From assembly GCA_033439255.1 (NCBI GenBank), contig JAVRDV010000018.1:310001-374000 (forward strand): a DNA stretch of 64,000 nucleotides. The letters are read 5' to 3'. Every line of letters begins with the position of its first letter. Within the stretch, counting starts at the first letter, position 1. Source of the DNA: Hericium rajendrae (taxonomy: Eukaryota > Basidiomycota > Agaricomycetes > Russulales > Hericiaceae). The position numbers were made by a program, and so were the translations under genes. Positions 521 to 54,777 of the stretch are shown here, piece by piece. Under the pieces are notes generated by a model. The model had not been told where the DNA came from, made no database searches, and saw only the letters and a list, made by a program, of their open reading frames with translations.

Positions 521-1978
521 AGTTAGTTACCATGCAGTATTGTCTGGCCAAGTATACCATTTCTGCAATCGAATATGCCTGGCCAAGCACAAAATATGCC
601 TCAGCCTACCGCGGCATATTGCGGCATATCAGTATGCTTGGCCAATATCCAATATGCCGCAAGGCTGCATGATCTTATGATTGGCCAATGTGCATATCCT
701 TTCTGCACCAACATGCCGCTATGGTTGACCAACATCCCATATAATTATACGCTACCATTCTGGCTTGATTGACCAACCTCACATATCTTTAACTGCGGCA
801 TGCCTCTGCGGTTGGCCAACGTCCCGTATATTCATACGGTGGCATTCCGGCTTGGTTGGCCAACGTCGCGCTGAAATAACTCAATCATGCCGCCATGGTT
901 GGCCAATGTCCTACTGTATTTGACTCAACCATTCTGGCTTGGCTGGCCAGCGTCTGATATTATATACCCCACCATTGCGCCTTGGTTGGCCAGCCTCCGA
1001 CATATTTTACCGCGGCATGCCGCCATGGTTGGCCAAACACGTACATCCTGCCTGCATCATCATCCCGCTATGGTTGGCCAACATCCGAAGTACTATACCA
1101 TACCATGTGACGTTGGTTGGCCAACACAAATATTGGTTCTTTTGTGTCATGCCCGCATGGTTGGCCAACACAAATATTGGTTCTTCTGTGTCATGCCCGC
1201 ATGGTTGGCCAATGTCAGACATGGTTTACTGCACCATGCCCCTACGGTTGGCCAACATATGAAATAGTGTACCGTACCATGCTGGTATGGTTGGCCAATG
1301 CGGACATCCTGTCTGTGTTGTCATGCTGCTATGGTTGGCCAACTCGCATATTCTCTCTTCAGGACCATGCCCGCATGGTTGGCCAACAGCCGAAGATACT
1401 ATTATACTGTGTGACATTGGTTGGCCAATGCACGTATTATCTCTTCTGTACCGTGGCCGCATGGTTGGCCAATGTCTGACTCACTTTACCGCGGCATGCC
1501 CCTATGGTTGGCCAACATCTGACGGACCATGCTATACCGTGCGACATTGGTTGGCCAACCCACATGTTCATTCTCCTGTACCATGCCAGCATGGTTGGCC
1601 AATGTCTGACTCACGTTACCGCGGCATGCCCCTATGGTTGGCCAACATCTGACGGACCGTGCTATACCGTGCGACATTGGTTGGTCAACCCACATGTTCG
1701 TTCTCCTGTACCATGCCAGCATGGTTGGTCAATGTCTGACTCACGTTACCGCGGCATGCCCCTATGGTTGGCCAACATCTGACGGACCATACTATACCGT
1801 GCGACATTGGTTGGCCAACCCACATGTTCGTTCTCCTGTACCATGCCAGCATGGTTGGCCAATGTCTGACTCATTTTACCGCGGCATGCCCCTATGGTTG
1901 GTCAACATCTGAAATAGTATACCATACTATGCTGGTATGGTTGGCCAACACACATTATAGATTGCACATGCTCATTTC
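521..1978 (+). repeat. Left terminal inverted repeat: TTGGCCAA array
   Basis: A palindromic TTGGCCAA(C) motif recurs every 50-70 bp, usually next to CATGCC or CATGGT. It mirrors 22913-24100. Positions 1494-1913 contain three head-to-tail copies of a 130-bp unit; the right arm has about one, which explains most of the roughly 270-bp length difference. The open frames in this block are by-products of the repeat and are not listed as genes. Confidence 0.9.
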
Positions 1979-2790
1979 TTAGCATACTACATACAATGTC
2001 TATTTACCGCTATTTCACGCCACACTGCCATACCTACATTGGTTGGTCAGCCATGAACTCACCACTGCTTGTATGGATGCTCTACATCAACAGGGAGGTG
2101 ATGCTGGTGGTGACCGGCTCCTCGTGTTGTATTGCAATACGAGCGATGCTACAACCTTATCCAGAAGACCGTACCCCATGCCCGTAACATCCCCAAGCAG
2201 CCACGTCCCGTGATTCTCTGCATACCTCTGGTCATCATTCGTTCCATTGTATGCTCATATGGACTTGTATCGCAGACCGAGTGCATGCGTGCTAATGTAC
2301 TATGCTTCCCAGGTATGCCGCGGCATACTTACAGCATATGCCGCGGTTGATCTCTGGAATGTACAGGAATACGAGCGATGCTACAACCTTATCCAGAAGA
2401 CCGTACCCCACGCCCGTAACATCCCCAAACAGCCATGTCCAGAGATTCTCTGCATATCTCTGGTCGTCTGTGGACTTGTATCGCAGACCACGTGCGTGCG
2501 TACTAATGTACTATGCTGCCCATGTATGCCGCGGCATAATCTCAGAATATGCCGCAGCCTAGCTCCAGAATGTACAATGATACAAGTGATGCTAGAACCT
2601 TATCCAGAAGACCGTACCCCATTCCTGTAAAATCCCCAAGCAGCCACGTCCAGAGATTCTCTGCGTATCTCTGGTCGTCTATGGACTTGTATCGCAGACC
2701 ATGTGTGTGCGTACGAATGTACTGCATGACTAATATATGCCGCGGCATAATGTGGACCAATCTCATACAGATGCAATGAGTGGCAGTTCG
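1979..2790 (+). repeat. Inner part of left inverted repeat, three ~200-bp units
   Basis: After a short AT-rich stretch, about 2130-2760 holds three tandem units sharing ACCTTATCCAGAAGACCGTA, CCCCAAGCAGCC and GACTTGTATCGCAGACC. Each unit ends near a perfect ATGCCGCGGCAT palindrome (2315, 2526, 2737). The right arm has two units (about 22,376-22,750), so unit number differs between arms. Positions 2790-3247 hold no gene that I can support. Confidence 0.8.
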
Positions 2791-3247
2791 GAGTTTGATG
2801 AACATTCAGGAGCCCGGTCTCATTTACTACCTTTTGATATATGTGTTGCATTTGTTTTCGATTTCAGAAATTGCAGCGTCCTTGCACTTTCAATATCGTC
2901 TGATCTGTCTTGATTCTATGCTCTCAACGACTTGAAGTGCCCATAATATGTTTCGACAATCCCCACAGATGCCGCCTCAGCTGCCGCGGCATTTGTACGA
3001 TCTCTGTCTGGCTTGCATGTAATTTGAAACACATTGTAGGAGGCTGTCCATGTACTAATTGAAGGAATACAGTTTCCGTCTATGCCGCGGAGACTTCTGT
3101 ATAGCATATCCATCCCCATGTCGTACAATCATTATAGAATGCCGCCAATGTTGTTATCATTCATGCGGCATTTTGCTGGTATATGAACCTCAATCTCTGA
3201 TATAAAGTATATCTACCCTACAAGAATACTAAGATACGGATAGCCAC

Positions 3248-4394
3248 CTAGTACTTTTCAACTGCCATTCGGTAGCTATCCCGTGCATCCTCTAGGTAAC
3301 TCTTCATTCTCTCATGGCCTTTCGCTAACGTTCGGAAGAGGTTTAATTCTGTCTCGAACCATGCTGCTTCCGCTGCCATGACCTGCTGAAGTACCATCAT
3401 ACCGACAGATCCCGGATGGAGGCGACGGGACATGCTGAGATATCGGTGAAACGGGAAGTCCTGTGATATTTTGACCATCAGCTATAGGGACAGTCACTCA
3501 TCTCAAGTTAAAACGCACCTCGACCAATGGTGGCGGACTGCTACTATCCTGTTGGCCAGAAGAGAGGCATCATTAACATCTCATCACACATCAGCACAAA
3601 ATGTCCGCACCTCAGCCTGTTCAGTAGCCATGATTACCAGTCCATCACCTTTCTCCACCATTCTCTCCTTTCCCTTTCCCTTACCGGATACCTGGATTAA
3701 TTTAGGACTTAGTATATTGGCCGTGGTCATAGCCATAGTACATACCGATCCCGTGGGACTGCCTACTCCAGCCTTCGCAGGTGTCGCGATGGCATTACGA
3801 CCCGCCTCGCACTGCACATCCGGGCTTATGCCATCATCACGAATGACACCGCTGATCATCGTTTTGGTAAGCGCAACTGCAGCCGATATGTCCCCTGGAC
3901 CTCGCGAGGCATATCCCACCCCATCCGCAGATGCAGAATTCGGTAAATCAGTTTAAATTCAGGTAGAATGGGTTGACAACATACCTCCTCACCCAGAGTA
4001 GGACTACCGCATATGTCCATAAACATGCCCTCCATCTCCCGTAGCTCGTCCATTGCTCCCTGAGAAATATCAGCAACCAATTTCCCAGGGCTCGCACCCT
4101 ACTCACCTTTTCAACTTCCTGGACATCGGACCCTGTGCGCTCGTGAGCTACATTCATAGTCGGCAGATCAAGGACACCGCAGAACATGTCCTCCATCGCC
4201 TGAATGTCATCAGGATCTCCCTGCCCGCTATAAGCGTTGAAATCCAATGCTCTAACAATAGCACTCACCTGGTCCCCGCGTGCTGCCTGGCCTGCGGGCA
4301 TATGGTTCTGCGGGTTGTCAGAATACATATCCGCATCATGTTCAGACTCCTCAGCGAGTCCTACCATGAATGAATCCAGGTCGTCAGCGTTCAT
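3248..4394 (-). CDS. Unknown KDZ-element cargo protein A (301 codons)
   Basis: I do not recognise this protein. It reads as five exons on the minus strand: 4394-4107, 4059-3993, 3894-3590, 3548-3519 and 3460-3248. All four introns have GT/AG ends and the exons total 903 nt, an unbroken frame. It begins MNADDLDSFMVGLAEESEHD, so the N-terminus is acidic. The middle (near FMDICGSP and the KGKGKER stretch) is low-complexity. The C-terminal 70 residues look helical (LQQVMAAEAAWFETEL, LAKGHERMKSYLEDA). No membrane segment or catalytic motif is evident. It is divergent from gene B, with 143 bp between the starts, so the two may share a promoter. The second donor (GTGAGG) and third donor (GTGTGA) are less canonical, so exon edges there are the weakest part. 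Confidence 0.7.
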
Positions 4395-4537
4395 TGTAGT
4401 AGAGAGTCAACAGTGACACCAGCACCAATCTACGCGAGTTCACCGTGCGGCGCAACGGTCATGTGATCTGGCTCTCACTTCCCCGCGGACGCGGCTAAGT
4501 CGACATCCTGTCCCACTCTCACTTTGCACTCACCACC
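4395..4537. promoter_or_regulatory. Shared upstream region of divergent genes A and B
   Basis: These 143 bp separate the start codons of two divergently oriented cargo genes. The sequence is CpG-containing (CCCCGCGGACGCGG near 4480) and has no clear TATA box. A bidirectional promoter is inferred from layout only. Confidence 0.4.
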
Positions 4538-7013
4538 ATGTCATCCCCCTACACCCCACTTGAAAAGGATGTCATGCGCTGTGCTCTTCGTGTCCTCCTT
4601 GCCCTTGGTTCTCTAAAGCACCGGGACATTATCAGCAGGGATGAGTGGGAGCGATGTTTCACTGCGGAACAAGTATGTTTTCAGTTCTTAACTTCATATG
4701 CTGCTGACCACGTTACGTCTCTGCAGAAATCTCTAGCACAGGCATTTCTGGCCGTGCAACAAGCCGGCGAATGCAAGATAATCCCGCCGCTTGTCATCAG
4801 CTGGATGCTTGAGATGGTAGATGCCTGCCGCATGTCCCGGCCAGTGGACTTCGCTTCCATCTCCTCTGCGGATTCCCATCTCAAGGAGGAAATGATGGGG
4901 CACTACCACTCTGAGTTGTGGCCAACAAACTACCATGATCTCGACGATTCCCAGGGCGGCAGTGTGCTTGAAGGTGGGTGGTGGTTAGAGCTAGGTGTGT
5001 CGGTATTCGGTCCTGCATCATATTCAATCCATTGATGTATTGTTAGATCGTAATGAATCCCCAGTTTCCATTGCATCGTCATCCGACCATCCTGCTGGTC
5101 GTTCCTCCACTCAGACCACCCGCCCCGCCGTCGTACCTACTGCGAAACCTCCCCAGCCTGATCCTGAACGTCGCCAACCCCCACGACCTCGGCCTAAGGT
5201 TGTGCTCCAGCCCACGAAGAATGGCATTCGCATCCAAATCCCTGCAGATGATGCCGCCGAGATCCAAGAGCAAATTGATCGCAACCGCGCGCAGGTAGAG
5301 GCTTCTAAGATGCCCTCAAGGCCTGCAGAGCATGTCCCTGCCGCGCCGACCCCACCAGAGCCCCGCCGAAGCAAGCGCCGTGCGGAAGCCATGGCCTCTG
5401 ATGACAATGCCTTACCCGATGCCGCCCAACCAAAGACAAAGGTGCAGAAGACGAAGAACGTGCCTGCATCCAAGAAGGCTGCACCAATGAAGGCTGGGGC
5501 CAGCAAGACCACTTCTGCCTCGAAGAAGCCAGCAGCAGGCAAGACCGCTGCGAAGCCCCAAAAGGGCGGACGTGGCTGCAAGAATGCAGCGGCGACCAGC
5601 CAAGAAGTCCAGCAGTTGCAGGCCATTGAGGACGCCAGAGAGCAGGAGGAGAACCAGCAGGGAGATCAGGGTGTGGAGAGCGAGCAGCAGCAAAATGAGG
5701 ACCAGCTTCCTCCACAGGTAAGTCTGTAATTTGTTACCATATTCTTCCAATGCTCACATATACCTTTGCTCCAGCGGGTATTCACAGCTGACGAGCTTCG
5801 ATACATCAAGCAGGCCAAATTGGTAGCGGTACGCTTGCAAATTTCATTGTTACTTTATCATAAGCAATACTGATGAAGGTTTCAAATATCTTAGCTGGAT
5901 TCCTGCGAGCACTGCGTAACGGACCAGAAGCCTTGCTTCCCCAGGGGCCCATGCAACGCCTGCCTCGCCTGCAAGGGCCTCAAGCACAAATGCTCCCACC
6001 GGGCCCAAGGCACAGGCAGCGGGAATAGGCGTAACTGGGACCCAGAGGACTACTATGATGTGCTCTGGCGGCATGCAGCTGGGCCGATGCCCAAATGGCC
6101 CCTGGACCGCTCTGTCGACTGGGAACCTGAGGTGCAGGGTAATGTCTCATCATGGGGCTACTGGTCTGACGCAGCCTCGGCGACAGCTGCCGCAGCTCAG
6201 GCAGCCTCGGCTTCGAAGGCGGAAGCACAGCAGGCCGCAGTTACTCAGGCACCCGCTGACTTTGACGTCGACATGGAGGATGAGCCGCATATGCCAACAC
6301 TGCCAATGCAGGTCAACTTGGATGACCGTGCTCCTGGACCATCTTGGCGTAAGGACAAGGGCAAGGCTCCAGTGCACGCCCAGGACCAACACTTCGACAG
6401 TCCTGCACACGCTGATCCAGATCACCAGTCTGAAATTCCCCTGGATGTCACCCCTCCTCGCCGACTGAATCTGTCTCCTCATCCCCCTATTGCTTGCATT
6501 GACGATCCAATGCCGCAAGACCCGTGGGAATACGACCCACACTCCCAACAGCTGGTTGAGGATCTTGCCGTGAATATCAAGCGTATTCGCCTGCAATTGG
6601 GCACGCACAAAGGTGTCATTCAAGGCATGGCCCATCTCTCCACGGACGTGCAACGCCTCTCTGAGCGAGTGTCCAGCATTGACACCACACAAGGCTGCCA
6701 TCAGGAGTCAGTGGAACAGCGACTCAAGGAGCATGAGGACCATCTTCAAAACATTGATAGGGGCCTCACCACACTATCCAGCAACCTGCACACTGACATC
6801 TCCGACATGTCCTCCAGGATGGCCTCCTGGTTCGAAGAGCTGCGTGGCATGGTCAACATGGCCCCGCAACAAGTTCTGGTTCCCGCGGGACTATTTGGTG
6901 GGCGGTTTAGCACGGCGGCGGCAGTTCAGTGGGGTGGAGCTACTGATGCAGACCGCGGCAATGCTGGGGCCTTATCCAGCCAGTCTAGCACAGGTTCAAA
7001 ACCTGCCGAGTAG
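4538..7013 (+). CDS. Cysteine-cluster KDZ-element cargo protein B (741 aa)
   Basis: Five exons (4538-4672, 4727-4973, 5047-5717, 5775-5828, 5895-7013) total 2226 nt in one open frame with GT/AG introns. Domains in order: an N-terminal helical region (about residues 1-125); a long basic Ala/Lys/Pro-rich linker (about 130-330) with KKPAAGK-type tracts; a Gln/Glu-rich stretch; then a cysteine cluster near residues 372-402, CEHCVTDQKPC followed by CNACLACKGLKHKC. The C-terminal part is low-complexity, then coiled (about 540-650, spaced Leu/Ile/Val). The cluster resembles fungal Zn2Cys6-like clusters but has an extra Cys, so nucleic-acid binding is an inference. Gene C is convergent, with 732 bp between the stops. 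Confidence 0.8.
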
Positions 7014-7744
7014 GTATATCCATGCCCGCGGCATCCGGCGGCATTTTCACTATTATTTCATGAGTCCTGCATGCTCTTCGCCCTTGTACTTAAATAGATA
7101 ATGAATGATCAATCTCTCCTATCTAAGATAAAATGTGTGACCTGAGATGAATGATTCTTGGGCTTAAGACAGTTATATAACCCGTTTCAAGTCTCGCATG
7201 GCAATATCTGTGTATACAACATCCTGAACTGCGACCAGATATGAGTATCTATGATATGATGCACCAGAGTCTACATCACATGGAGTATTGACCCCGCCTT
7301 TCTCCATGTTCCACACACTGCTTTGAATCTCTGCGGCATGCTACTGACAACCTAAGGACATCGCCCGACAGCACACCACTGATTTATCATGCCGCGGCAT
7401 ATCTATTGACGTAGCCTATGCTCCTGCACCCTGCTTCGGGACTTCCAGAGCCATCACCCTCCTCTCTATATCCTACAGCCCACTGTAAATGTTGTTCGCG
7501 TCGGCCCACGGCCGCGTGAGGCATGTTGAAGCCCCTATCGTTCGGTATACAATGCCGCGGCATATCTGTTGAAGGATGCCGCATGCCGGCGAGAGTCCAA
7601 TGGGCTCTCTCAAGCTTTCCTGCCACCGGATGGACGTGCTGCAGGGATCGCAACCTCCACTGTCAGCTTCGGATTGCGGCCAGAACGTGGGGGTTGTCTA
7701 CATTGTGAATCAGCAAGACGCCTGGGTGCTGACAGCAGCATAAC
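7014..7744. other. Intergenic region between convergent genes B and C
   Basis: I see no gene. Two perfect copies of the 12-bp palindrome ATGCCGCGGCAT (7389-7400, 7552-7563) and several GCGGCAT half-sites lie here, at or beyond the 3' ends of two converging genes. Confidence 0.6.
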
Positions 7745-10700
7745 TTACTCAAGGGCCTTAGCCGTCGGCCGCTTTCTCCTAGACCCTTCAACAATGTTCT
7801 CATCCTGCACTTCAGGCTTTCTTTGCCGCCTTGCAGGCGGCTTGATTGGGGGATGCATCGAGCTCGGCCCAGCCTTTGGGGGACTATCAGGAGATCGAAG
7901 ACGTTTCCCTAGCAGATGGGGGCCTCCACGATCATTGGCGGCATTGCTGGCCCTCGTGACATTGGCATTCTGTCCAGAGGATGGAGCCTGCTGCCCGGAT
8001 AGTTTAGCATCATTGCCGCATAAATAAAGAGATAATTAATGTTGCCTACAGTTTCGGTAGTGCCTTCCGGATCATCTAACGCCTTGCAGGCTTTCGTAAT
8101 TGCAGGGATTATCAGACTCGCAATGTAAGCGAAAGCAAGAGGTGATCCGTTCAAATAGCCAGGTCCTGAGCTCTCCTTGTCTGCGTCCTCTGCGAATTGG
8201 CCTTCATGCATATCATGTATAGCACTACCCATGGCCAAAGCAAAGGTTTCCATGCTTGTCCTAGATTGGACACTCCTCGACCTGTTCTGCGTTGGTGTAG
8301 AAAGCCAGGGCTTCGTACCAATCCATGTGGTGAGGTCCTCTAGCCCCTCCTGCCTATGAACTTCAGCAGGAAGCCACATTTCCTGGCTCTCCCAGTCTTT
8401 CCAGTGCGTTCTCCAGCTTGCTGGAAGTGGAATTAGTGGCGCAGCACCCATTCCCTAAGTCCAGTTAATGTTTGAAACTTTGAGATGTCATAATAGCATC
8501 ACTCACTCCTTGCATCTGTGCAATCAGCTCCAGAAGCTTGCAATACTCCTTTTCATTGGATAACGAGGCCAGGTATTGCATGCGGAGTCGGGTGTGGCGT
8601 CGTGTGTCTGCAGGGCATTCCAAAGTGGCTGGACGATTACCACGGCGTTGCGGAGCACCACCTGCAGCAGCGAGAGACCCTCCGGCAGGGCCGCCTGAGC
8701 TTCCAGTCCACCCAGGAGGTCTCTCCAGCTCCTGTAGGCTCTGGTCTGCCACTTCGTCCACCATGATCAACACCTCATCCTCCTCATCAGTCGATGGAAT
8801 TCCAGACTCCTTCTGCTGTCCTTTGGTTTCCTTTGCCTTCTTCCCCTTCCCAAGCTTCACCAGATTAGCCTTCGTTATGGTCAGTCGTTCCTGATAGGCT
8901 TTATTCTTCACCTCCTTCGCTTTCGTCTTTGCCTCCCTCGCCTTTGCCTCCCTCGCCTTTGCCTCCCTCGCCTTTGCCTCCCTCGCCTTTGCCTCCCTCG
9001 CCTCCTTCGCCTGAGCCTCCGCCTGAGCCTCCGCCTGAGCCTCCGCCTTCACCGCGGCCTTCGCCTGGGCCTTCGCCTGAGCCTTCTCCCCCATGGTCTT
9101 TGCCACCGCGACTTTGGCCTTCATGGCGTTTGCCTTGGCTGCAATTGCCTTGGCCTCCATCGCCTTGGCCGCCTTAGTGGTTTTCGCTTTTGCCTGCGAG
9201 GCATTCTCCTGAGCCACCTGCACCTCATGCTGTTTGGCCAGGGTCTGCGTTGCCGCCTTTGGATGCTGTGCGTCACTCTCCAAGTCTATATCAGACGGGT
9301 TTGCCTCCTCTACTTCTGCTTCGGAGTCCTCCTCTGCTGCTGCAGTAATGCCGCTGTAGTCCGCATCAGATAGAACATCCCCTGCCTTGGACGCATCAGT
9401 GTCCGAAAGGTGGATGATGTCTTCACCACCTAGTGACGACGAGGTAAGGTCCTCATCGGTGTCGTAATCCCTTGGGGGCCTGTCCTTGCCTTTCCGCCTG
9501 ATTGCAGGTGGCGGGGTGTCTTGTACATCTGGTGACGATGGGGTCTGGTCATCCTGGCTGTCGTAATCAACGTGCACCCGTTCCTTGCCTTTTCCCAAGG
9601 TCGCCATCGGTGTACGGCTTTGTGCGGAGGTATTGGAGAACCCAGCGGCATTCCAGGACGCTGTTGGGGGCCTGTCCTTGCTTTTCCGCCTGATTACAGG
9701 TGGCGGGGTGTCTTGTACATCTGGTGACGATGGGGTCTGGTCATCCTGGCTGTCGTAATCAACGTGCGCCCATTCCTTGCCTTTTCCCAAGGTCGCCGTC
9801 GGTGTACGGCTTTGCACGGAGGTATTGGAGAGCTCCGCGGCATTCCCGGACCCTGTGGAGGGGGACATGGCATGGCGGGCCTTCAATGCGGCTTTCCTGC
9901 CTTTAGCAGGAGGTCCCTGCATTGGAGTAGGAGCTTTGGCAAAGCATTGAACAGTGTCATCACCGTCAACCTCCGGAAAATAATCCCACTTGAAGGGAAT
10001 CAAGCCTTCGTCTATGCGGTGGTGCCAGTGCCTGTATACATCTTCAATGCAATATTGGTTCCACTTTGACGGGTGAATCCAGAATTGGTATCCTGGCGGG
10101 AAGCAATCTAGGGAGAAGTAGTCGCTGTCCTCGGTAAAAACCAATCCCCATGGCACCGCACCCTTCACTTCACCTATTGCAATATCTGATCTACATGTCA
10201 GCTTCTGCTCCACGAGATGATACTCTGGCTTACAGAAGTGTGCAGTCATCCACTGAGTGATCAAGGCCTTCCGCTCTTGCCTCTCCAGCTTATCGAATAC
10301 CTCTAGCGATGGCAAGATCGGCCAGCCTTCATCGTCATAATCCAGTTCCGGGAGGTCTAGGCTTTCGCTTGGAGCATCTGGAGCTTCACAAAGCAGGGGA
10401 TCTGAAGCATGGCATCAGCGCTTGCCAGCCAGATATATTGAAGTACTCACCTGATGCCTTTGTTGACCACTCCGTCCATTGTGTAAATATGCCGGTGTCT
10501 GCCCAGTTCAGATTTGCCTCGCTGAACCCCTTTGTCCCAGACAGGTCTTCTGTATAGTCTTGCCTACTCGGGGTTAACTCAAGTCAAATGTTAAAGCAGC
10601 AAATGACTTACATGGCATGGGCCAGACGGCCATCAGGGCATTTAAAAGATGTGAAAATGATCATTTGCATGCCGCACTGCTGATACATTTCTTTGGCAAA

Positions 10701-11395
10701 GCCGTGCATGTGGGCGACTGCATATTTGGATGCATTTCTATTCAGGATTAGCCCCCGCGGTTGCTAGAAGAGAAGTTTGACACGTACTTGCATTGCACAT
10801 CAGGCGGGGGGCCCATCTGATTCCACTCATTCGCCATCTCCTCATACTTCGCCTTATCCGCGTCACTGAACTTCGCACACCACGCCATTAGGGTGTTCTG
10901 TCGCAATCCAACCCACTTCGGGGACCCGACTTTGACCCCGTTCACCCGCTCGAAGTATGCATGGAACGAATCCTTCTGCTCATGTGCGGCCACGTTCCTC
11001 CAGTCTGCCTTCTTCACGTACTTCTTGACCTGGGTACTTGCGGTCTTACGGCCATTATTTCGGAACCAGATCACGACGCGCTGTGCTGAAAGTCAGAAAG
11101 GGAGATTTCAAGTAAAACAGATATGGACCTCCTTGACCCGATGCCTCCACTTCTTCCAGGGAGCAAACTCGTGGGCAAATTTGACCTCCAGGTGGTCCAC
11201 ACATTCGTTTGCAATGGCTGTCTTTCGGGCAGAGTCCGCCAAACGATACTCGGCCACTCATGTGAAGAGATATGCAATGTGGCGGGGCTGGAGGGTGAGC
11301 TGGACTTCCAATGCTGCTGAGGTGCTTGCGGTTGCCTCATCCGCGGCTTTGGACATGTGCTTGTTGGCTTTGGTTATCTTTTTCGCCCTAGCCAT
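7745..11395 (-). CDS. Large unknown KDZ-element cargo protein C, with one in-frame TGA
   Basis: Seven exons on the minus strand: 11395-11129, 11080-10788, 10737-10612, 10563-10451, 10401-8507, 8454-8050 and 7990-7745. They sum to 3345 nt (1115 codons) with GT/AG introns. The N-terminus has a basic region ending VVIWFRNNGRK, then a module around KWVGLRQNTLMAWCAKFSD and YEEMANEWNQMGPPP. A conserved-looking central region follows (PPGYQFWIHPSKWNQYC). After it come a tandemly duplicated block of about 60 residues (DYDSQDDQTPSSPDVQDTPP twice), an Ala/Lys/Glu coiled stretch with repeated EAKAR, and a basic C-terminus (SRRKRPTAK). A TGA at 11260-11258 interrupts exon 1 between LFT and VAEYRLAD and would arise from CGA by one C-to-T change. 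A DNA- or chromatin-associated role is inferred from composition only. Confidence 0.75.
8929..9060 (-). repeat. 15-bp coding repeat (EAKAR) in gene C
   Basis: About five head-to-tail copies of CCTTTGCCTCCCTCG (plus-strand view), then GCCTCCGCCTGA copies, encode the Ala/Glu/Lys/Arg heptad-like stretch of protein C. Such tracts usually form long single helices and vary in length between alleles. Confidence 0.75.
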
Positions 11396-12250
11396 TAGGA
11401 AGGGGAAATGTAGGGGATGGCCAGAAAGGACATGCGACCTTGAACGAATTTTTGCAATATAATTCGTCCGTCTTCCATCACGCACCGGCCAGGATCGAAT
11501 TGGGAACCCATCCGATCACACCATGGCAGGTATTGAAATACCGGTAAGGCAACCAACAGGGCCAGCCGAAATAATCCTTGCCGAACGGAGAGCAACGGGC
11601 ATGTTGCTCCATTCGAAAGAAGACAGGTTTCCCGTTGTCACTCACTACAACAATCACATGCCCATCGCTTCATTTGCCAACTAGTACTGAGATTGAGCAT
11701 AATGCTAGCTTGATACACATATTCCATCCGTATATCATGTATTTCTGGGAAGAGAAGTCAGTAGGATCTTTGAATGTGTCTGTGGATCGATAGACGCAAA
11801 TAAGAAGTCCAGCGCGCCAAACATCTGGGCACGGCCCCCACCGGATAATCTATCCACAATCAATCGGTTACTCGTCATAATACATAATACAGCTATCAAG
11901 TCTGGTCCGAAGTCCACAATCGTGATGCGAGAAAGCATTAATGAGCCATATACACAATTGTGTAGTATCAAAGACTGTGGAGAATGTTGGGTTATTGTTA
12001 AGTTTATAGTGTACAATTCCCGAAACATAGATTCATGCTGATTGAGTCAACCGCTGGACAATAGAAAGGTACAAAAACAGCGGTAGCTTCATAGGACAAT
12101 AGAATGACATTGGCAATTCCAAATTGATGGGACAATAGAACAATGTAATATGTGGACAATGGAAGCTCGAGTACGATCATGGCTGCCTCATTGTCCCTGC
12201 AAGTATTTCAGTCTGCGGTATTCCAGAGACAACTATACCACAGAGTCATC
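11396..12250. other. Divergent intergenic region between genes C and D
   Basis: About 850 bp separate the start of gene C (minus) from the likely start of gene D (plus). Near 12,040-12,165 the phrase GGACAATAGAA recurs at short intervals. I see no further gene. Confidence 0.4.
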
Positions 12251-12566
12251 ATGTCTTCTGCACCTACATCCCATGCGGCATCTTCATCTCCTTGTCCTTA
12301 TGCCTCAGCCATGGCAGAGTATCTCTCCCACCGATTTTGCAATGTGCTCAGACAACGTCAATGCGCGGTATTGAACCGGGCTGTGCCTGGTGATATTGAC
12401 CGTCCTGCTATGACAATACCAATTACTGTTTTATCTGAGCTCGACTTCGCCGCGGATATGCTTGTCACTGCCTTTTTGGATCGTGGTATGTAATTATGTG
12501 TATGCGGCATTCTCCCCCATTGCTTAATTCCCATTAGTTGTGATCACATCTGAGAAAAGGACCAGT
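12251..12566 (+). CDS. Likely 5' exons of the TET/JBP gene, upstream of an insertion
   Basis: An open frame from ATG at 12251 (MSSAPTSHAASSSPC) runs to a GTATGT donor at 12486. A short second exon from 12538 reads VVITSEKRT before the inserted sequence begins near 12,570. The part YLSHRFCNVLRQRQCAVLN looks like a folded domain start. Position and strand make it the 5' part of the dioxygenase gene at 15215-16316. Its last phase does not match the phase needed at 15215 with any splice pair I could find, so either an exon was lost or the insertion broke the gene. An in-frame ATG at 12152 is an alternative start. Confidence 0.5.
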
Positions 12567-13703: not shown

Positions 13704-14943
13704 ATGCAACACTCCCTCCACCCATCTCCCCCTTCGTCTGCCTCTCTCTCTCCATACGCACGGCGTCTTCAAGACTCGGGAGGACTTAGTAGACGGCTTG
13801 AGGGGCTAATAGGTATGTTTAAAAACTCTCTTTCATTTGTTTCTTGTACTAACACAGCGAGTATCGCTCGTTCACCGAGCGATACTCGTGCTTTCGTTCT
13901 TGCAACCGCGCGCACCACGCCCCCATCGCCTTCGACAACCCCGCGGTCCACGTCCACGAGCTCGCAGCAGCCCCATCCCCGACAACAACGCCGTCCACGT
14001 CCGCGTTGTCGTGCCTCGTTGCCGTGGCAACGGGGCACGACACGTCGCTCGGACTCCCGCGCTCACCCTCAACGACACCCGCACGTCCTCAACAGGTTCG
14101 TGCGGGTCATACAACCACCTCGCCGTCGACAATGCGCTCGCGGCCGCGACATCCGGCTGTGCGCACACAGCTACGCAAGGTCGCAAGCCCGCGCGAGGTC
14201 TGAGCTGCGCGTGCACGCCGCGGACGGCCTCTCCAGCCGTTTCCCATGCGGGCGCACACTCTCGCATGCCCGGACGGCACGAACACGTCCGCCCCAGCGT
14301 CCGCACGCAAACGCGCGACCAGGCGGGTCTACACGAGTGCGCGCACGGCCAGCACGACCGGCGCACCCCGCCTGCTCCGGCATCGCCTGTGCGCCGATGC
14401 CCTGCCCCGCACACGACCCCCGCACCCCGCGTGCGAGCAAGGCCACGCAAGACCGTGCCAACTCACGTGCGGCCATGCACGATCCGTGACACCCCGCCCC
14501 GCCCCGTCCCGCGCATGACCCGTGCGCCGACACCATGCCCCGCACATGGCCGCCTCGCCCCATGCACGCGCGTACAGCCAGGGACGGCCGCGCCAGCTCG
14601 CGCGCGGCCACGCCGATCTGCGCCCCCCCGCCTCGTCCCATGCATGGCCCTGCGCCGATGCCTCACCCCGCACATGGCCGCCTCGCCCCGTGCGCGCGCG
14701 CACGGCCAAGCACGGCCATGCCAGCTCGCGCGCGGCCCGCGCACCCCGTTTCGTCGCCCTCCGCCTGACAGCATGCATCCGCCGGGCGAGAGCGCACCTG
14801 TCCGTTCACACACAGATGGTGATGCGCAAGAGGTGCGAGGGCGCGAGGTCTATTTAGGACCTTCGTTTGCTAGTGTAATAGTGTTAGATTTTGTATTTTC
14901 CTTGTTTGTAGTAGTCTACCCCTTGAATATAAGAAAATTTTGA
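13704..14943 (+). CDS. CpG-rich Arg/Pro/Ala-rich open frame within the insertion, doubtful gene
   Basis: A leader with ATG at 13704 (MQHSLHPSPPSSASLSPYAR) reaches a GTATGT donor at 13813. The intron has a textbook CTAAC branch site and ends CAG at 13857. Beyond it, two reading frames stay open for 750-1,000 bp, mainly because the DNA is over 65 percent GC with few TA-containing stops. The predicted residues are almost all Arg, Pro, Ala, His and Thr, with no recognisable domain. A long non-coding spliced transcript fits as well as a protein. A perfect 13-bp inverted repeat follows the acceptor (13858-13888). Confidence 0.25.
13858..13888 (+). other. Hairpin directly after the 3' splice site
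   Basis: CGAGTATCGCTCG and its exact reverse complement flank a 5-base loop TTCAC, starting at the first base after the intron's CAG. A related but different hairpin occurs at the equivalent place at 24404-24439. Confidence 0.7.
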
Positions 14944-15214
14944 CTTAAATGTCTTGACTACCTATGTGGCTCATCATAAGGAGTATAGTAGCCATAGTAG
15001 TCATAGTTTCCCTTGGTAAGTATCATAGTCCTATGTATATGACACCCCTAGCTATAAAGGCTATGACACCCTATGTATTTGACACTTCATGCTATGGAGG
15101 CTATCATAGGCCCCATAGCTCCACATAGCTAAATAGTCCAAGTTCATAGCCCTCATAGCTCACTGATAGGGCCCATAATAGGACTTGCTGCTATATACAA
15201 AACAGATTTCTCAG

Positions 15215-16316
15215 ATGCAACTGGGACATGGAGCGCTATGCAGAATGTAAACGAGAGCAGGACTCTCCAGTATTTCTGCAACGATATCCGCAGGTATCAG
15301 GACATCCCGAGTATACCAAGCCCTGCATCGGCATTGATCGGCATGGACGAATTTTCTTCTGGTACTTGCCTGGTCTTATATCCAAGGAGCGCGAGGTATT
15401 GTCTTTTGCAGGTACATACAATCAAAACCACTAATTTCGTTCACAGATCAAGATGGCGAGGGCAACAGAACATTTGAACGCACATGTTCGAAGGTCCAAT
15501 CCATCTCGGAAAAAGCCTGGAAGCACCAAGGATGGCACATGGAGGGAATCGCCCCAGCTCTTTCATCCTGCAGAGGCATGTAGCCGATTCACCCCAGGGA
15601 CGGTGTCTGTGTCTCCTGCATGGTTTCAGCAGGTGCACACTGTGTGTATCATATTTCCCAATTCATATCTATGTCTCCAGCTCATGCACTGGTTCATATA
15701 GGGGCCCAACGATGACTTGTTTACTTCGCCACTGATAAACCCGGCAAAACGCAACATTGATGGTGCGAACTGGGTGGCTGACATTGCAGAGTCGGCTGCG
15801 CTATTCAGCGCTATTCTAAGCATTGTTCATCCAGAGCTCTACGATGCCGCGGCATCTGTCATGAAGGAGCTCAAGGGCATTGAACGACTTGCTCCAGCCC
15901 TTCAGCAATGGCCATCTGTGTTCAATGGAGTTGCGGTCATATCTAACCAGCAAACACCAGCTCATCGCGATGGGCAGAGTCGTGCCTCATGGTATGACAT
16001 TCTCTGCACCATCGGTCCCTATCAGAGCGCAATGTTTGCGCTTCCAGGAACTGGCCTAGAACTGAATTACAAACCCCGCACTGTCATAGCAGTGTCTGGC
16101 AAAGCCCTGGAACATTCAGTCTCAGACTTTGTTGGGGAGCGCATTTGTTACGCATGGTTCATGAGAGATGCCGTGCATGATCGCATTGGGCAGGAGGCAG
16201 CCGGATGGATGCGGGTCAGCAGGTATGAGACCATGCACGCTGAGGCGGCTGTTGGCGATTCCGAAGATGATCTGGAGCAATCGGTGCTGGATCTCCGGAG
16301 ATTGGCGTTATCTTGA
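15215..16316 (+). CDS. TET/JBP-family Fe(II)/2-oxoglutarate dioxygenase (5-methylcytosine oxidase)
   Basis: Three exons (15215-15395, 15447-15632, 15702-16316) with GT/AG introns encode about 327 residues, starting mid-codon. The family oxidises 5-methylcytosine or thymine in DNA in the nucleus, using iron and 2-oxoglutarate. The double-stranded beta-helix core is complete: the HxD motif in TPAHRDGQSRASWYDI (His codon 15963, Asp 15969), the distal iron His in GKALEHSV (16113), and the 2-oxoglutarate Arg in GERICYAWF (16140). An N-terminal segment CIGIDRHGRIFFWYLPG matches the pre-core region of fungal members as I know them. It lies upstream of the transposase on the same strand, the arrangement known for basidiomycete KDZ elements. 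Its 5' exons are separated by the 12.57-15.19 kb insertion, so expression of the full protein is uncertain although the catalytic part is undamaged. Confidence 0.9.
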
Positions 16317-16480
16317 GATCATATGGACATCTAGAATATACCACGGCTTCTCGGAAGCATGTCATTTGCCACCATTTGTTCCTTAGTAATGAGTGTAAAA
16401 CTGAGGGTCCTAATCGTTCAAACATTGTGGCGTTATTATATGCGCCTTAACACCAAGGCCCATGCACCATCAGTCCCAGC

Positions 16481-19400
16481 ATGGCCCGCACCAAGCCGGG
16501 CAGGAATAAAGTACGATATACTGCACCCCTCCATGGCAATGTCCATGTCACCCTGGTTGTGCAGAAGACGTCCCGCGGGTGGAACCAAGTCGGAATTGAA
16601 AAGGCTGGATCACGTAGACTGCTGAGCGAAACCCCTTCTAACCTCACTCCTACGCCTGACAGGGAGGGAAGTGGACCATCCAGGGATGCTGTCTTCAATG
16701 CTCTCCCAGGGCCACGTACTGCCGACTATGAAGTCATGAACAATGACTTTGTAGAGGAGGAGGACGGGATTCGTGACCCATTAGCAGATGTACATCACAA
16801 GGTGGGTAGGATAACCTCGGCATGCTGCAGGACACGGTGCTGATGCCGCGAGCAAGGGACAGCATGATTACTTGCGCGAATGGCTACCCAAACGTTCAGA
16901 CTACATCCATGCCATGTTGGATACCGAGTGCCCACCAGTTGATACCCAGTGCGTTACCTGCAAGAGTCAAGAAGGTGTCTGGCGATGTATGGACTGTCTA
17001 GGGCAGATGTTTGAATGCACTCCCTGTTTCTCTAAATGTCATACGGCCTTGCCATTCCACCACGTCGAACGCTGGACTGGCGAATTCTTTTCTCCATCAT
17101 GGCTTCGCTTCGCCGGTGTCAAGATTCATGTAGGCCATTCAGGACATCCTTGCCCTTATGCCAGTCGAGAGGACGTTGAATCAAGTGTGGATCTGGAGGA
17201 GGACGCTGAGGAGGATCCACCAATTGACGATGAGGATCCTACTGCACCATGGCCTGCTGATGATGAGGACCTGCTGTCCTTTCAGACTGACGTCTTGCCG
17301 AAGAAGGCCCGTGATGCCGACGGGAATCCAATTCTATGTATTGTGGACTCGAGTGGTGTGCACCGCATGCCGGTTGTCTGGTGTCAATGTCCTAATGCAG
17401 ATCCCCTCCCCTGCAACTCTTCCGTATGCAGATGTTCCCATCTACATTCCACTCACCTGAGACGGCATTTACCTTCCGCGTTCTGGATGACTTTCGGCTG
17501 GACAACCTGGAATGCAAGACGACGGCTTACCATTTCTATCATAAGTTGCAAAGGCTCACGAATAGTGCATTTCCGTCCAGTGTACCAGTATGTGTCTGTC
17601 TCGACGTGGGCCATCACCATGCTGACTGTAATCCAGGATAGATACCGGGAGTTGTTGCGGGTTGAGCGGCAATGGCGGGATATGAAACTCAGGAAGTGGT
17701 TTGGTATGGGTCACGACCCAGAGGATTCAGAAACACCAGGATGCTGCACGATGTTCTGCCCTACCTGCGCACAGCCAGAATTCAATCTACCAGATGACTG
17801 GAAGACAGCTGACCCCAGACGGTAACTCGCTCCTCACATGGTGCATGACCTATGGCTTACCGTCCTGCATGTAGTTGGATTTTTCTCAGGACGTTTGTGA
17901 TGGACAGCAACTTTGAGTCCACAGGAAGCAAGATGCGCAGACCGGCCAATGACGTCCAGCTTAGCGAAGGGGCCGGATTCATGGTTGGACAAGCAGAGTA
18001 CAAGAAGCACTTGAAGGTGGCTAATGACCAACGCGAGGTGCGCATCATTTGACCATATCACCAGAACACCGTTGAGGTATCCCGCGGCATATAGCGATCC
18101 ACCTGCAATGAGCACCGGGCGGTCAATCATGTCAATGCTGATCGCCATCACGTTGAACATACCGGAATTGGAGCAACGGCTTGCTGCCATGGGTGCTTCT
18201 ACCCGCACTCTACAGTTGATTTTCAGAAGGGCGAGCGGTTGGTCTATGATTTCAGCCATGTGGAATGAACATGCTGACCAGTGTAACAGACAAATGAACA
18301 TGGACTACTCCGCGTGTCAGGCCATTAACTTTAGAAGCAAAGGTATAGAAATCGTCATGAAAATATACGACATCATATGCCAGTGGCGCAAGAAATTCTG
18401 AGAACACGTGGCTAACAGTGAATTCCTATCTCTTCCTGATAGCATCGTCAAGATGAAGACTGCAATTGGACTGTTTCATGTGCATGGGCACAAGGATGAA
18501 TGCATCCCAGCATTTTCACCGAATTATATCATCGGTGCACGGCAATTCGATGGTGAAGTTGTCGAGATGCTCTGGGCTCCACTGAATGAGATTTCTAGAA
18601 GCACCAGTGGCATGTCGACATCCCACTGTCGGGAAGTTCTAGACGACCATATGAATGATTCAAACTGGAAGAAGCTCATTGGAATGGGTACTGATCTGAA
18701 TCGCCATATCCTGTTTATGCCGCTGACCCACTATACAGTGAACTACCTATCGTGGCGGTATCGGGCTGGAAAGGTAGAATTAGAAAAGGCAATCACGGCA
18801 TTCAAGAGTATCAATTCCACGGTCTCACGGGATAAACGGGATGACTGGGCGAACGAGGAGGAAGAGGCACAAAGCAAACGGGAAGATGATCCCATGGTGA
18901 TGGTCAAAATCTATGACACTACGGTAAAGAAAGGTACTGTGGTATCCTGTCCATAACCTGGAGCCAGTACTAATATATTATATGTTGTGGAAGGGCCGAC
19001 AAGAGCCGATATCCTCGTCAGGCTAAACAAACTAGAATTGGACCGTGGACAGGGCCTTGGTGCTGCGGCATGGATAACACTGGGCCTCCGGATTCAAGAG
19101 ACACAGTTCGTTGTTTCACCTGATGTATTTGATTTGATCTCAACCTAAATCTCAAACCGCAGGCTGTCTATTGTATCGCTTGTCTGCAAAGTGGGGTCGA
19201 GCCCTACCTCGGCACAAAAGAATGATCTCGAGGACAAACGAAGACGTCTGCAATCCCGTGTGACAACCTTTGAGCATGCTGCATGCCAGTTTTTACCCTA
19301 CGACATTGATACGGCTAATCACGGCATCCCTCTCTCCGCTGGAGATGGAGATCAGTTTGATCACATTGGAGAAGAAGACGAGGACAATGATACCCACGCT

Positions 19401-20253
19401 ACTGCAGTACCCCATAGATCTGGCGGTTACATCCCCATTGAACGCGTGGCTATCAGCCTACCATCTCGTCTTGATAAGGAGGTTCTCCGTATGCCTCAGA
19501 TGAAGACATTGGTGGAAGCTGAACTGGAATTGCGGGAAGGCCAGGCCAATGATGCATTGCAAAGCTTACGACTAGCCTTGGGATACAAGGCCTATGTTTT
19601 CAGGACTGATGTGCGGCAGGCCAATAGTCAACGCAAGAAGACACGGGCATGGGAGGGTGTGACCTCTATCGAAAGCACCGTTCAACACCAGGCACGTGTG
19701 TATTCAAGATGTAGAGAGGCTATGGAAGATCTGGGTGCTAAGGAGGACATGCTCGAGAGGTTCCAATCTCTCCTTCCAGAGCATCTGAAGGTCCGCACTG
19801 CTGTCCTGGATCCATCGGTCAGGGGTCTACGCAATTCAACTCTGCCTTGGTTCTGGACGATGGATGTCTCTGGTGATTCACTTGAAGGCGAATGGCTTGC
19901 AGACTGTAAGTCGGACATTCAGTCTTTATCAGAGACGTATGCCGCAACATGATTAATTCACACTATTCTCAGTCCACCGAGTTCAGTGGCTTCGTGCACG
20001 GGCAAGGATGCATCGTTGGCATGAGGAGATGGTTGTTCTTCCATTTGAAATGGATTGGACTGTGAGAGGATTTCAGAAGCGTGCAGATGATTGGGGGAGC
20101 AGGGTGGAGAAGGCCGGTGAAGAGGGGTTGCGCGGCCATGCGGCATATGGTGCACGGCAGAAGGCGATGTGGAAGGAGTTTTCTGGAAGCGCAGACACAA
20201 TGTTCAAGTCTGTGTTAGGGGATGATGAACGTTCTAAATATGGTCTAGACTAA
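16481..20253 (+). pseudogene. KDZ transposase with CxC2 zinc cluster, broken
   Basis: The N-terminal part starts MARTKPGRNKVRYTAPLHGN. The CxC2 cluster (from about 16,940) reads CVTCKSQEGVWRCMDCLGQM, then CTPCFSKCH, LPFHHVERW and GHSGHPC. The KDZ core follows: AFTFRVLDDFRLDNLECKT, LRKWFGMGH, CNEHRAVNHVNADRH, GIGATACCHGCF, VDFQKGERQMNMDY, IYDIICQW, GLFHVHGHKDEC and DDHMNDSNWKKLIGM. A long helical tail runs to 20253. Introns include 17588-17636. The transposase would cut and join element ends at the terminal repeats. Defects: an in-frame TGA at 18399-18401 (explained by CGA to TGA), a frame shift near 17,400-17,425 in a C-rich run, and a frame mismatch near 16,800-16,830 not solved by a normal-length intron. 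The acidic core residues seem present, so inactivation looks recent. Confidence 0.92.
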
Positions 20254-20355
20254 TGTACATGTACTTGGCTGGACATACTATGCTTCACACAAATGTGGAT
20301 GGATTCTCACTGTGATCACATACCGCGGCATATCAGAGATCATTCGAACTGGCCT

Positions 20356-22115
20356 TTAGTCATGCAGAGACCTATTCAAGGTTTGCCAGGCCCCGCCTTC
20401 ATCCTGCATCCAATCCTCCATATGTTGCAAGTCGTCGAGGATGACGGAACGCTCCTTGCACCATGCATCGATGTAATTGGACAGATTCTCTGCCACAGAT
20501 ACAGCCTGATCCAATGCATAGTAGATGCGGTCTGCACGTCGCACCTACCGCGGCATCAGCAAGATAGCCAATGGCATAGGAGGTATGTACATACCGATTC
20601 CACATGGGCACGTACAGATAGGGCAAGAGTTCCTAAAATATCAGGGGGCGATGGTGTACGCTGAGCTGCCATCTGCCCTTGGCCTCCATTACCCCTACAG
20701 TCTGTTAGCAGTGTTCTGTGACGCATACCAGACAGGTTCTGCTGACCTTCCGCTCTGCGCAGGTCTGTGCGATTGACCTGCCGTCCTAGTTGTGGTCCGG
20801 AGCTCCTCCCTTATATCGTCTGGCCACCACTGGGAGCGGGGAAGCCACCACCGTGGCATGTATCGCATAATCGGGTCACCCCACGGGAATGTGGGAGCAG
20901 GTGGCAGCGCTGAATGACGACCTTCGGATAGAGCACGACCAAGGATATCTAGGTGGGTCCCAGTATCCCGTAGCAATGTAGGAATGATAATCGGCGTCTT
21001 GGCGAACTCCGCGAATCCAATGATGACAGCTGCGGCATTCTGAACACATGCTCAAATGCTGTTGCATTATGTGGTCTATGCAACGTACCAGTTCATTTTG
21101 TACTGCATTGAATGCATACCAGTACTCATATGTGCCGGGGGGAGTGGAAATCGTCTGCATTGCATCGTGAATTCGCCATGCGATTTCGTTCAGTATGGCC
21201 TGTCCAAGCGATCCAAAAGGTGGTCTGGAAGTAAAGGCAGTCGTAGCATTAGGGGTGGTCATTGTTAGCTCACAATACTTGGCACAGTATTGAGTGAAGG
21301 TGAGTAGTTGAGCGGCGAACGACTGGTATTGATTGCCGCCCAAGGGGGATTGCAAGCACGTGCAGCACACAGACTACGTCATATTCCCACGGCATGGAAC
21401 AACGGCTTCAGGCAAAACATCAAAGGATAGCATAACATGCGAAATACGATGCGACAGGTTCTACTGAGTCGACCCATGAAGGAGACAAAATCTTCCAGTC
21501 TTATGCAGCTATTCCTGGTTCTCCCTTTTCATCCTCATGACGTCCTGCAGAGCATCATTGGCCAATGTCCGCTTCAGCTGCCATCAGTCCAATTGGTCCT
21601 TTATGGAACCAGCTACATATTTATGAAGATGTTCTGCCTGGGTGATGTCGTCGAAGACCTTCGCACGTGCAGCAAGAATGTCTGCGGGTGGCGTGGGCGG
21701 TCCTTCGGCATATGTGCCACTCTAAAAATGACTCAGGTTGAGTTTTTAAATGGACGAAAGACTGGTGCCTACCTGCGTGAGAAGTGCGGGAACATATCCC
21801 AATATCCCTCTTTCATTGGCTGTGTGAGCATCAACTGCCCGGCGAAATTTCTTCGACATGCGAGTACGGATACGGAATGGATCAGGTTGCCCATCAGCCT
21901 GATGGAGTTTGAGCAACCCAATATCCCGGGATAAATCCACCTTGGTCGTAGTGAGCAAACAGAATAAGTCAAGGATATATTCGATATACCCATTGTGCTG
22001 CTGTCATCTGGGGATCCACATCGGTGGAGGCAATCTGCAAGAGTGCCTGCTCCACGCTTGCAGAGATGGCTGAGATATTTGGGCAGGTACAAGCCCATGT
22101 ATTGTCAAGAGACAT
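20356..22115 (-). pseudogene. Unknown KDZ-element gene F, decayed
   Basis: Minus-strand gene starting MSLDNTWACTCPNIS at 22115; exons 22115-21990 and 21940-21773 splice cleanly (VDLSRDIGLLKLH, then RTRMSKKFRRAVDAHTANE). Exon 3 (from 21721, AEGPPTPPADILAARAKVFD) has an in-frame TGA at 21586-21584 where Trp is expected and a TAG at 21511-21509 where Gln is expected. Farther on, good coding segments remain: LLTFTQYCAKYCEL, IIGFAEFAKTPIIIPTLLRD, PRWWLPRSQWWPDDI, and the end YYALDQAVSVAENLSNYID. A further frame break lies near 20,690. No known domain is visible. A decayed homologue at 26.5-26.8 kb (VQLSCDIELLKL) shows that gene F belongs to the element family. Confidence 0.7.
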
Positions 22116-22375
22116 GTTGGAGTCGATAACAGATCCGGTATCACGATTGCAATCACACTGGTGCCTGTGTCCCACAACGTCACATGACTTTCATTTATGT
22201 GTTTGGAGTCACGGGGCATTGTTCTGGCAGACGGGCATCAGAAGCATGGTGGCATGCCATGGCATATTGCCCACCTATGCCGCGGCATGATTCCGGACTA
22301 GCCTGCGGCATATGGTAGAATTACGGTCGGGCATACACTGGCGGCATAGTACCCTAGTACATACTGAGGTGCATT

Positions 22376-24288
22376 AAGATACAAGTCCATATGAGCCTAC
22401 AACGGAAAGAATGATGGCCAGAGGTACGCAGAGAATCATGGGACATGGCTGCTTGGGGATGTTACGGGCGTGGGGTACGGTCTTCTGGATAAGGTTGTAG
22501 CATCGCTCGTATTCCTGTACATTCCAGAGATCAACCGCGGCATATGCTGTAAGTATGCCGCGGCATACCTGGGAAGCATAGTACATTAGCACGCATGCAC
22601 TCGGTCTGCGATACAAGTCCATATGAGCATACAATGGAATGAATGACGACCAGAGGTACACAGAGAATCATGGGACGTGGCTGCTTGGGGATGTTACGGG
22701 CATGGGGTACGGTCTTCTGGATAAGGTTGTAGCATTGCTTGTATTGCGGTACAACACGAGGAGCCGGTCACCACCAGCATCACCTCCCTGTTGATGTAGA
22801 GCATCCATATGAGCAGTGGTGAGTTCATGGCTGACCAACCAATGTAGGTATGGCAGTGTGGCGTGAAATAGCGGTAAATAGACATTGTATGTAGTATGCT
22901 AAGAAATGAGCATGTGCAATCTATAATGTGTGTTGGCCAACCATACCAGCATAGTACGGTATACTATTTCAGATGTTGGCCAACCATAGGGGCATGCTGC
23001 GGTAATGTGAGTCAGACATTGGCCAACCATGCTGGCATGGTACAGGAGAACGAACATGTGGGTTGGCCAACCAATGTCGCACGGTATAGCACGGTCCGTC
23101 AGATGTTGGCCAACCATAGGGGCATGCCGTGGTAAAGTGAGTCAGACATTGGCCAACCATGCAGCCACGGTACAGAAGAGATAATACGTGCGTTGGCCAA
23201 CCAATGTCACACAGTATAATAGTATCTTCGGCTGTTGGCCAACCATGCAGGCATGGTCCTGAAGAGAGAATATGCGAGTTGGCCAACCATAGCAGCATGA
23301 CAACACAGACAGGATGTCTGCGTTGGCCAACCATACCAGCATGGTACGGTACACTATTTCATATGTTGGCCAACCGTAGGGGCATGGTGCGGTAAACCAT
23401 GTCTGACATTGGCCAACCATGCGGGCATGACACAGAAGAACCAATATTTGTGTTGGCCAACCATGCGGGCATGACACAGAAGAACCAATATTTGTGTTGG
23501 CCAACCAACGTCACATGGTATGGTATAGTACTTCGGATGTTGGCCAACCATAGCGGGATGATGATGCAGGCAGGATGTACGTGTTTGGCCAACCATGGCG
23601 GCATGCCGTGGTAAAATACGTCGGAGGCTGGCCAACCAAGGTGCAATGGTGGGGTATATAATATCAGACGCTGGCCAGCCAAGCCAGAATGGTTGAGTCA
23701 AATACAGTAGGACATTGGCCAACCATGGCAGCATGATTGAGTTATTTCAGCGCGACATTGGCCAACCAAGCCGGAATGCCACCGTATGAATATACGGGAC
23801 GTTGGCCAACCGCAGAGGCATGCCGTAGTTAAAGATATGTGAGGTTGGCCAATCAAGCCAGAATGGTAGCGTATAATTATATGGGATATTGGTCAACCAT
23901 AGCAGCATGTTGGTGCAGAAAGGATATGCACATTGGCCAATCATAAGGTCATGCAGCCTTGCGGCATATTGGATATTGGCCAAGCATACTGATATGCTGC
24001 AATATGCCGTGGTAGGCTGAGGCATATTTTGTGCTTGGCCAGGCATATTCGATTGCAGAAATGGTATACTTGGCCAGATAATACTGCATGGTAACTAACT
24101 GTCAGGTATAGGGGCATAGGCGAACATTCCCGGGCAACGCAGTATGATAATTAAGATTGTCATTCTGGCCATACTACTATGACTACACCAGGACGTTGGC
24201 CAACGTGAGCTCACCAATCTAGAATGCGACGGTGTCAGTTTGGCTCAACATGGTCTTATGGAAAATCAGTACTGAATCATGTGCGATT
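22376..24288 (-). repeat. Right terminal inverted repeat
   Basis: 22,376-22,750 holds two ~200-bp units matching the left inner repeat, and 22,913-24,100 is the inverted TTGGCCAA array. From 24,101 to 24,288 the sequence has no counterpart at the left end but does match the decayed relative at 27,880-28,053 (CTACTAT...GTTGGCCA...GTGAGCTC...). The outermost ~190 bp of the original inverted repeat therefore survive only on this side. Confidence 0.85.
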
Positions 24289-39480: not shown

Positions 39481-39489
39481 TAGGAGTAT

Positions 39490-54770: not shown

Positions 54771-54777
54771 GCCCTCT

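Follow-up and report, generated by a model that had tools for sequence, protein, structure and literature searches.

The stretch of DNA analysed here (the window, 64 kb of the Hericium rajendrae contig JAVRDV010000018.1, positions 310,001 to 374,000 of the forward strand) holds between its positions 521 and 24287 a region that is probably a single copy of a DNA transposon of the KDZ superfamily, at least 23.8 kb long and most likely a candidate member of the Kyakuja type; we put the probability of this reading at roughly two in three. Two inverted arms enclose about 20 kb, in which the gene of a CxC2-KDZ transposase adjoins, on the same strand, that of an AG-type TET/JBP dioxygenase, both between inverted arrays of the palindromic site TTGGCCAA. 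Placement in the KDZ superfamily follows the Pfam matches to a KDZ transposase domain, interrupted by a TGA codon, and to a CxC2 cysteine cluster. An earlier reading of the letters without database searches (the sequence-only reading) had described inverted repeats around a CxC2-KDZ transposase and a TET/JBP gene, which is borne out by the arm alignment and the Pfam matches, and had pointed to array-type ends on a KDZ element whose TET/JBP gene looks intact, a combination that the analysis supports.

In an intact relative, the transposase would bind the arrays in multiple copies and pair both ends for cut-and-paste transposition, and the TET/JBP enzyme would oxidise 5-methylcytosine (5mC) in the DNA of the element, easing its silencing. 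From the present copy, as assembled, a whole transposase could not be made, and movement would occur only by means of transposase supplied elsewhere; this copy gives no support for a complete, active element in control of its own methylation. At this locus the sequence gives a view of how cytosine methylation and a TET enzyme carried by a transposon oppose each other, for an intact-looking TET/JBP gene lies within an element whose arms show transitions roughly ten times as often at CpG as at other C or G positions. The methylation scar makes the element a useful test case, a nearby relic shows where the right end of such an element lies, and the regularly spaced sites could serve directly in binding assays for KDZ transposases. 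How these enzymes recognise their ends has not, to our knowledge, been worked out.

Inverted arms and site arrays

The left arm (521 to 2468, plus strand) consists of repeats of 43 and 44 bases, forming a 130-base unit, with TTGGCCAA cores at 638-1941, and its inner part holds repeats of 211 and 232 bases, which continue to about 2751. The right arm is an array at 22413 to 24100 on the minus strand. Aligned end to end, the arms pair in two blocks, 521-1642 with 24100-22979 (97.8% identity) and 1903-2468 with 22978-22413 (96.5%), which together differ at 45 of 1688 aligned bases; between the two blocks the left arm is longer by 260 bases, equal to two 130-base units.

The palindrome TTGGCCAA is carried by the 43- and 44-base units. 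It occurs 51 times in the window, with 24 copies in 521-2751, 23 in 22378-24288 and 4 elsewhere, a concentration in the arms that is far above chance. When up to one mismatch is permitted, its density is about 14 per kb in each arm, 0.51 per kb between the arms and 0.25 per kb in the 36-64 kb part. Successive copies (521-1941 and 22933-23976) are mostly 43 or 44 bases apart, a third of the 130-base unit and roughly four helical turns.

The transposase gene

The CxC2-KDZ transposase gene, located by its Pfam domains, extends over about 16481 to 20762 of the plus strand, the outer limits being approximate. Two parts of the KDZ profile PF18758 were matched: positions 5-132 with an expect value (E) of 4.2e-22, the query being a spliced sequence typed with one residue wrong, and positions 142-217 (E 4.7e-18). 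The two matches lie in the same frame and are split by an in-frame TGA at 18399-18401. The CxC2 profile PF18803 is matched at positions 25-50 up to base 17402 (E 3.6e-4, below the Pfam cut-off) and at positions 53-105 from base 17408 in a different frame (E 6.8e-17). Because the five bases 17403-17407 cannot accommodate an intron, the frame is broken there, and this change of frame is probably real unless the assembly errs in a C-rich run. Both domains named by the sequence-only reading are therefore present, but it had overlooked that the frame is broken, as assembled, at these two places. The gene contains an aspartate in MDSNF, another in YDIICQW and a glutamate in DGEVVE, which we take to be the catalytic residues.

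The TET/JBP gene

The TET/JBP gene lies at 15228 to 16316 on the plus strand, in three exons (15228-15395, 15447-15641 and 15702-16316) that are open to the stop codon and separated by two introns, each starting with GT and ending with AG. Its last exon (15702-16313) matches the Pfam family Tet_JBP with E 3.4e-19; profile searches recover both the TET/JBP and the KDZ assignments of the sequence-only reading. A search of PDB sequences with the protein gave two distinct matches (E 2.5e-25 and 2.7e-25), to CcTet of Coprinopsis cinerea and to a "2OGFeDO JBP1/TET oxygenase domain-containing protein". The HRD motif (HxD), the distal histidine and the arginine align with those of CcTet; with the HRD motif as reference point, the residue corresponding to Asp337 of CcTet is an aspartate and the one corresponding to Gly331 a serine. 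Assignment to the AG type follows from HxD in place of HxE, the distal histidine, the arginine and the aspartate at CcTet position 337; HxE marks the PE type in Kojima 2025 (PMC12730594). The description of the enzyme as catalytically intact thus holds for the residues but does not extend to activity: intactness is a statement at the residue level, apart from the predicted oxidation of 5mC (and of N6-methyladenine, 6mA).

The right end and a diverged relic

Beyond the right arm, a terminal stretch at 24101 to 24287 (plus strand) has no inverted counterpart at the left. Its limit is given by a diverged relic of the right end of a related element, at 26503 to 28068 on the plus strand, which contains part of a gene referred to below as gene F, an array and the terminal stretch. 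Segment 24035-24287 matches 27817-28068 with a score of 69 (maximum of 100 shuffles, 20), segment 21696-22188 matches 26503-26991 with a score of 61 (shuffles up to 21), and 24162-24287 alone, with the arm excluded, still scores 46 against the relic (shuffles up to 19). The gene F part is 37.7% identical over 77 amino acids (E 7e-8), and TTGGCCAA cores lie in the relic at 27623, 27667 and 27710, that is, 44 and 43 bases apart with one mismatch permitted. Shuffles were used since identities from a gap-permissive aligner (70-76% for the copies) had to be discarded: random pairs reached a mean of 72% and a maximum of 81%, and the flank past the end 72.5%.

As the relic retains, in unchanged order, the gene F part, the array and the terminal stretch, these three belong together; on genes A, B and C, described below, it carries no information. 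Since the similarity continues to 24287, where it stops, the right end should lie near that position, 187 bases past the arm. The interval 521-24288 proposed by the sequence-only reading mixed two definitions of an end, its start being the outer edge of the left arm and its end falling 187 bases beyond that of the right arm; the end coordinate agrees with the terminus defined by the relic, although that position outside the arm, and its basis in the relic, had not been recognised. Compared with the left 540 bases, the right terminal stretch scored 11 (shuffles up to 15), so that no inverted repeat was found at the very end, and the left terminus may lie outside the window. Exact and near-exact searches for target duplications of 7-9 bases, a comparison proposed at the outset, gave scattered matches, none of which was accepted. 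For right ends at 24270-24293 a single exact 7-base match was obtained, GATTCAT (335-341 and 24293-24299), with about one expected by chance and without the CA..TG form; TG dinucleotides that could mark the right end are present near it, but they also occur by chance.

CpG transitions in the arms

Differences between the arm blocks are transitions at 28 of 264 C or G positions in CpG and at 15 of 1400 other C or G positions (Fisher p 2e-13), counts that include both positions of each CpG, although these do not vary independently, and in which the differences are unpolarised. Losses have occurred in both arms, the CpG being retained by the left arm in 18 cases and by the right in 10. Most of the differences are transitions at CpG, as methylated cytosines would be expected to leave behind. 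Taken at face value, the arms were once methylated at CpG and are now in decay, a state in which the relic has presumably been for longer. The scar suggests that methylation reached this copy; either the TET gene failed to prevent it, or it arose once that gene was silent.

The 211-base tandem of the arm shows the same tendency (9/48 at CpG and 9/164 at other positions, p 0.007), and no bias is seen in a direct duplication at 39.5 kb, outside the element (10/116 and 14/222, p 0.5). Two repeats near 55 kb, with 0 and 1 CpG positions, are uninformative. The ratio of observed to expected CpG is 0.14 in the relic, 0.63-0.76 in the arms and interior, 0.32-0.33 in the near flanks, 0.91 in the 28-36 kb part and 0.97 in the 36-64 kb part.

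Further genes and surroundings

Four further genes, A, B, C and F, had been proposed inside the element; two of them hold long open frames, but the other two rest on a rough splicing model. Gene A (3248 to 4394, minus strand) is a tentative and weak six-exon model of 249 amino acids from a home-made gene finder, with no Pfam match. The tentative gene B (4538 to 7013, plus strand) contains an open frame of 372 amino acids (5895-7010) with a cysteine motif, CxxC ... CxxCxxxxxxC, and the tentative gene C (7610 to 11612, minus strand) one of 649 amino acids (8468-10414), together with an upstream exon in which an HMG-box is hinted at (E 0.27, below the cut-off). The two open frames are real candidates; the cysteine motif and the HMG-box hint are leads only. 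The gene F region (20747 to 22311, minus strand) may tentatively comprise one or two genes, and its segment 21696-22188 is the one that recurs in the relic; gene F, which adjoins the right arm, is the only one of the four supported by a second copy, albeit a diverged one.

No scanned part of genes A, B, C and F (for gene B, the scan covered all but 5047-5717) reached the Pfam cut-off, and a PDB sequence search with the long frame of gene C gave nothing up to E 0.1. The fold model of the gene C exon was too poor (mean predicted local distance difference test score, pLDDT, of 53), and its comparison with PDB structures returned 21 matches with E up to 10, none at or below 0.001; that of the gene F part, made from a two-row input, was also too poor (mean pLDDT 60.6). 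The suggested role of these genes, as co-selected cargo with a part in managing methylation or chromatin, was not substantiated, there being neither a family match in the scanned parts nor a second full copy. The gene finder, which reported models of at least 90 amino acids with introns of at least 40 bases, over-predicts: TET and KDZ were run together in a single model of 21 exons, and models were also placed on the opposite strand. Models were accordingly retained only where they matched domains, long open frames or the relic.

The long frame of gene C includes a 192-base in-frame tandem duplication (9472-9856, 94% alike), and a G+C-rich tandem repeat of 128 bases lies at 14497-14737, between gene C and the TET/JBP gene. 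Between element and relic, in a stretch that is poor in CpG and rich in A+T, there are tandem repeats of 103 and 122 bases (25192-25663 and 26131-26311). Farther to the right are a large tandem array at 32732-34968 (unit lengths near 182 and 350 bases), the direct duplication already used for the CpG comparison (39483-39808 and 39824-40156, 90% alike) and a host gene with a cyclin N-terminal domain (42954-43889, minus strand; Cyclin_N, E 6.5e-12). Two inverted repeats follow, one at 54776-54985 and 55073-55281 (94% alike; its alignment contributed no CpG positions to the counts), the other at 56801-57201 and 57348-57748, of about 400 bases, 98% alike, with some 150 bases between its arms.

Alternative readings

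Several observations weigh against a single KDZ element with a methylation scar of its own. In the 64-kb window no second full copy, left terminus or target duplication was found, the predicted role of the arrays as transposase-binding sites is drawn by analogy, and long inverted arms, even if inside the end, differ from the Laccaria Kyakuja families, described as lacking terminal inverted repeats (TIRs) in the main text of PMC12730594. The scar may not be special to the element, because the inverted repeat at 57 kb, outside it, leans to CpG changes too (5/150 at CpG and 1/260 at other positions, p 0.03). A further point against the methylation reading is the tandem inside gene C, which lies within the element but gives 3/52 and 6/173 (p 0.4). 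Searches for relatives retrieved none from viral contigs (queries with the KDZ and TET stretches) or from genome contigs (TET stretch), a result of little weight because these collections contain no fungal genomes as such. The arms might instead be an independent foldback-like repeat, or two insertions in opposite orientation, around older nested insertions mixed with host genes, as the missing target duplication and second copy with both arms, genes A-C without a family match in their scanned parts, a region rich in other repeats and CpG-poor flanks would allow. We consider this improbable, since the relic preserves the order of gene F part, array and terminal stretch, 47 of the 51 TTGGCCAA copies lie in the arms, and the arms match each other in register more closely than neighbouring 130-base units match within one arm (89-92%), as expected for the two ends of one element. 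Hardly more probable is that the transposase is intact in the organism and the element autonomous, the frame change being an assembly error and the TGA either another or part of a very short intron. The profile scores are good on either side of each defect, the frame change sits in a C-rich run, a common site of error, and the TGA falls within 36 bases (18383-18418) that begin with GT, end with AG and could be spliced out without loss of frame. As an intron, however, this segment is implausible, being too short beside the other introns of the models (50-68 bases) and poorly bordered (it starts GTGGCG), and splicing it out would delete part of the KDZ match, which reaches profile position 132. 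Each of the two defects would need an explanation of its own, in a copy whose arms are decaying.

On the role of the TET/JBP enzyme, Kojima 2025 (PMC12730594) argues for escape from silencing. That the enzyme instead lays down oxidised cytosine as a mark of repression or self-limitation is a rather unlikely reading, though the one with most in its favour among the alternatives: oxidised cytosines in transposable elements of Laccaria and Coprinopsis are reported to accompany silencing, with autoregulation suggested (PMC8889193), and methylation scars here coexist with an intact-looking TET gene, although the scar could be later than the loss of TET expression. A broader and doubtful proposal, only slightly more credible than an intact transposase, is that a KDZ family independently evolved Foldback-like ends, in which arrays of palindromic sites inside unique termini, kept across deep divergence, assemble a multimeric transposase complex, draw CpG methylation and are acted on by the element's own TET/JBP enzyme, transposase-less copies that retain TET helping their relatives.

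Comparison with known systems

TET-carrying KDZ elements, and the naming of the KDZ class, reportedly go back to Iyer et al. in 2014. TET-carrying Kyakuja elements have been reported from five orders of Agaricomycotina (Kojima 2025, PMC12730594), in agreement with the statement of the sequence-only reading that KDZ elements with TET/JBP genes are known in basidiomycetes; a TET-carrying KDZ element is an already known kind. Like these, the Hericium element combines a KDZ transposase gene with an AG-type TET/JBP gene, and its aspartate and serine agree with the Asp at the CcTet 337 position and the Gly or Ser at the 331 position described for Kyakuja TETs (PMC12730594). The protein resembles CcTet (PDB 7vpn, 7w5p; second chain 8jkk) over query residues 73-284, with the catalytic positions named above kept, and differs from it in the change of Gly331 to Ser and in an N-terminal part that is shorter in the gene model.

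The two Laccaria Kyakuja families have CA..TG termini and 7-base duplications (PMC12730594). The present element may resemble them in that no inverted repeat was found at its very right end and candidate TG dinucleotides lie close by, although its left end may be outside the window; it departs from these families, as far as they are described there, in its long inverted arrays just inside the end, its size of at least 23.8 kb and its several further genes. With Zisupton, for which 8-base duplications and TIRs are given in the introduction of the same paper, it shares a transposase of the KDZ superfamily, but neither an 8-base duplication nor a TIR was found at its right end. Long inverted ends built of tandem repeats recall Galileo and Foldback; in Galileo, of the P superfamily, the long inverted ends are described as holding several transposase binding sites (PMC3688188). 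The transposases are unrelated, however, and the long repeats of Galileo are TIRs, whereas here 187 unique bases lie outside the right arm. Array-type ends are not described for Kyakuja in the main text of PMC12730594, where the word "subterminal" does not occur; such ends of KDZ elements may already have been drawn, because the Marasmius oreades genome paper states that the TIR motifs of KDZ and Plavaka elements are characterised in its supplement (PMC8290104). What merits recording here as a variant is the presence of long inverted arrays of regular spacing, next to an additional stretch at the terminus, an arrangement kept in a diverged copy.

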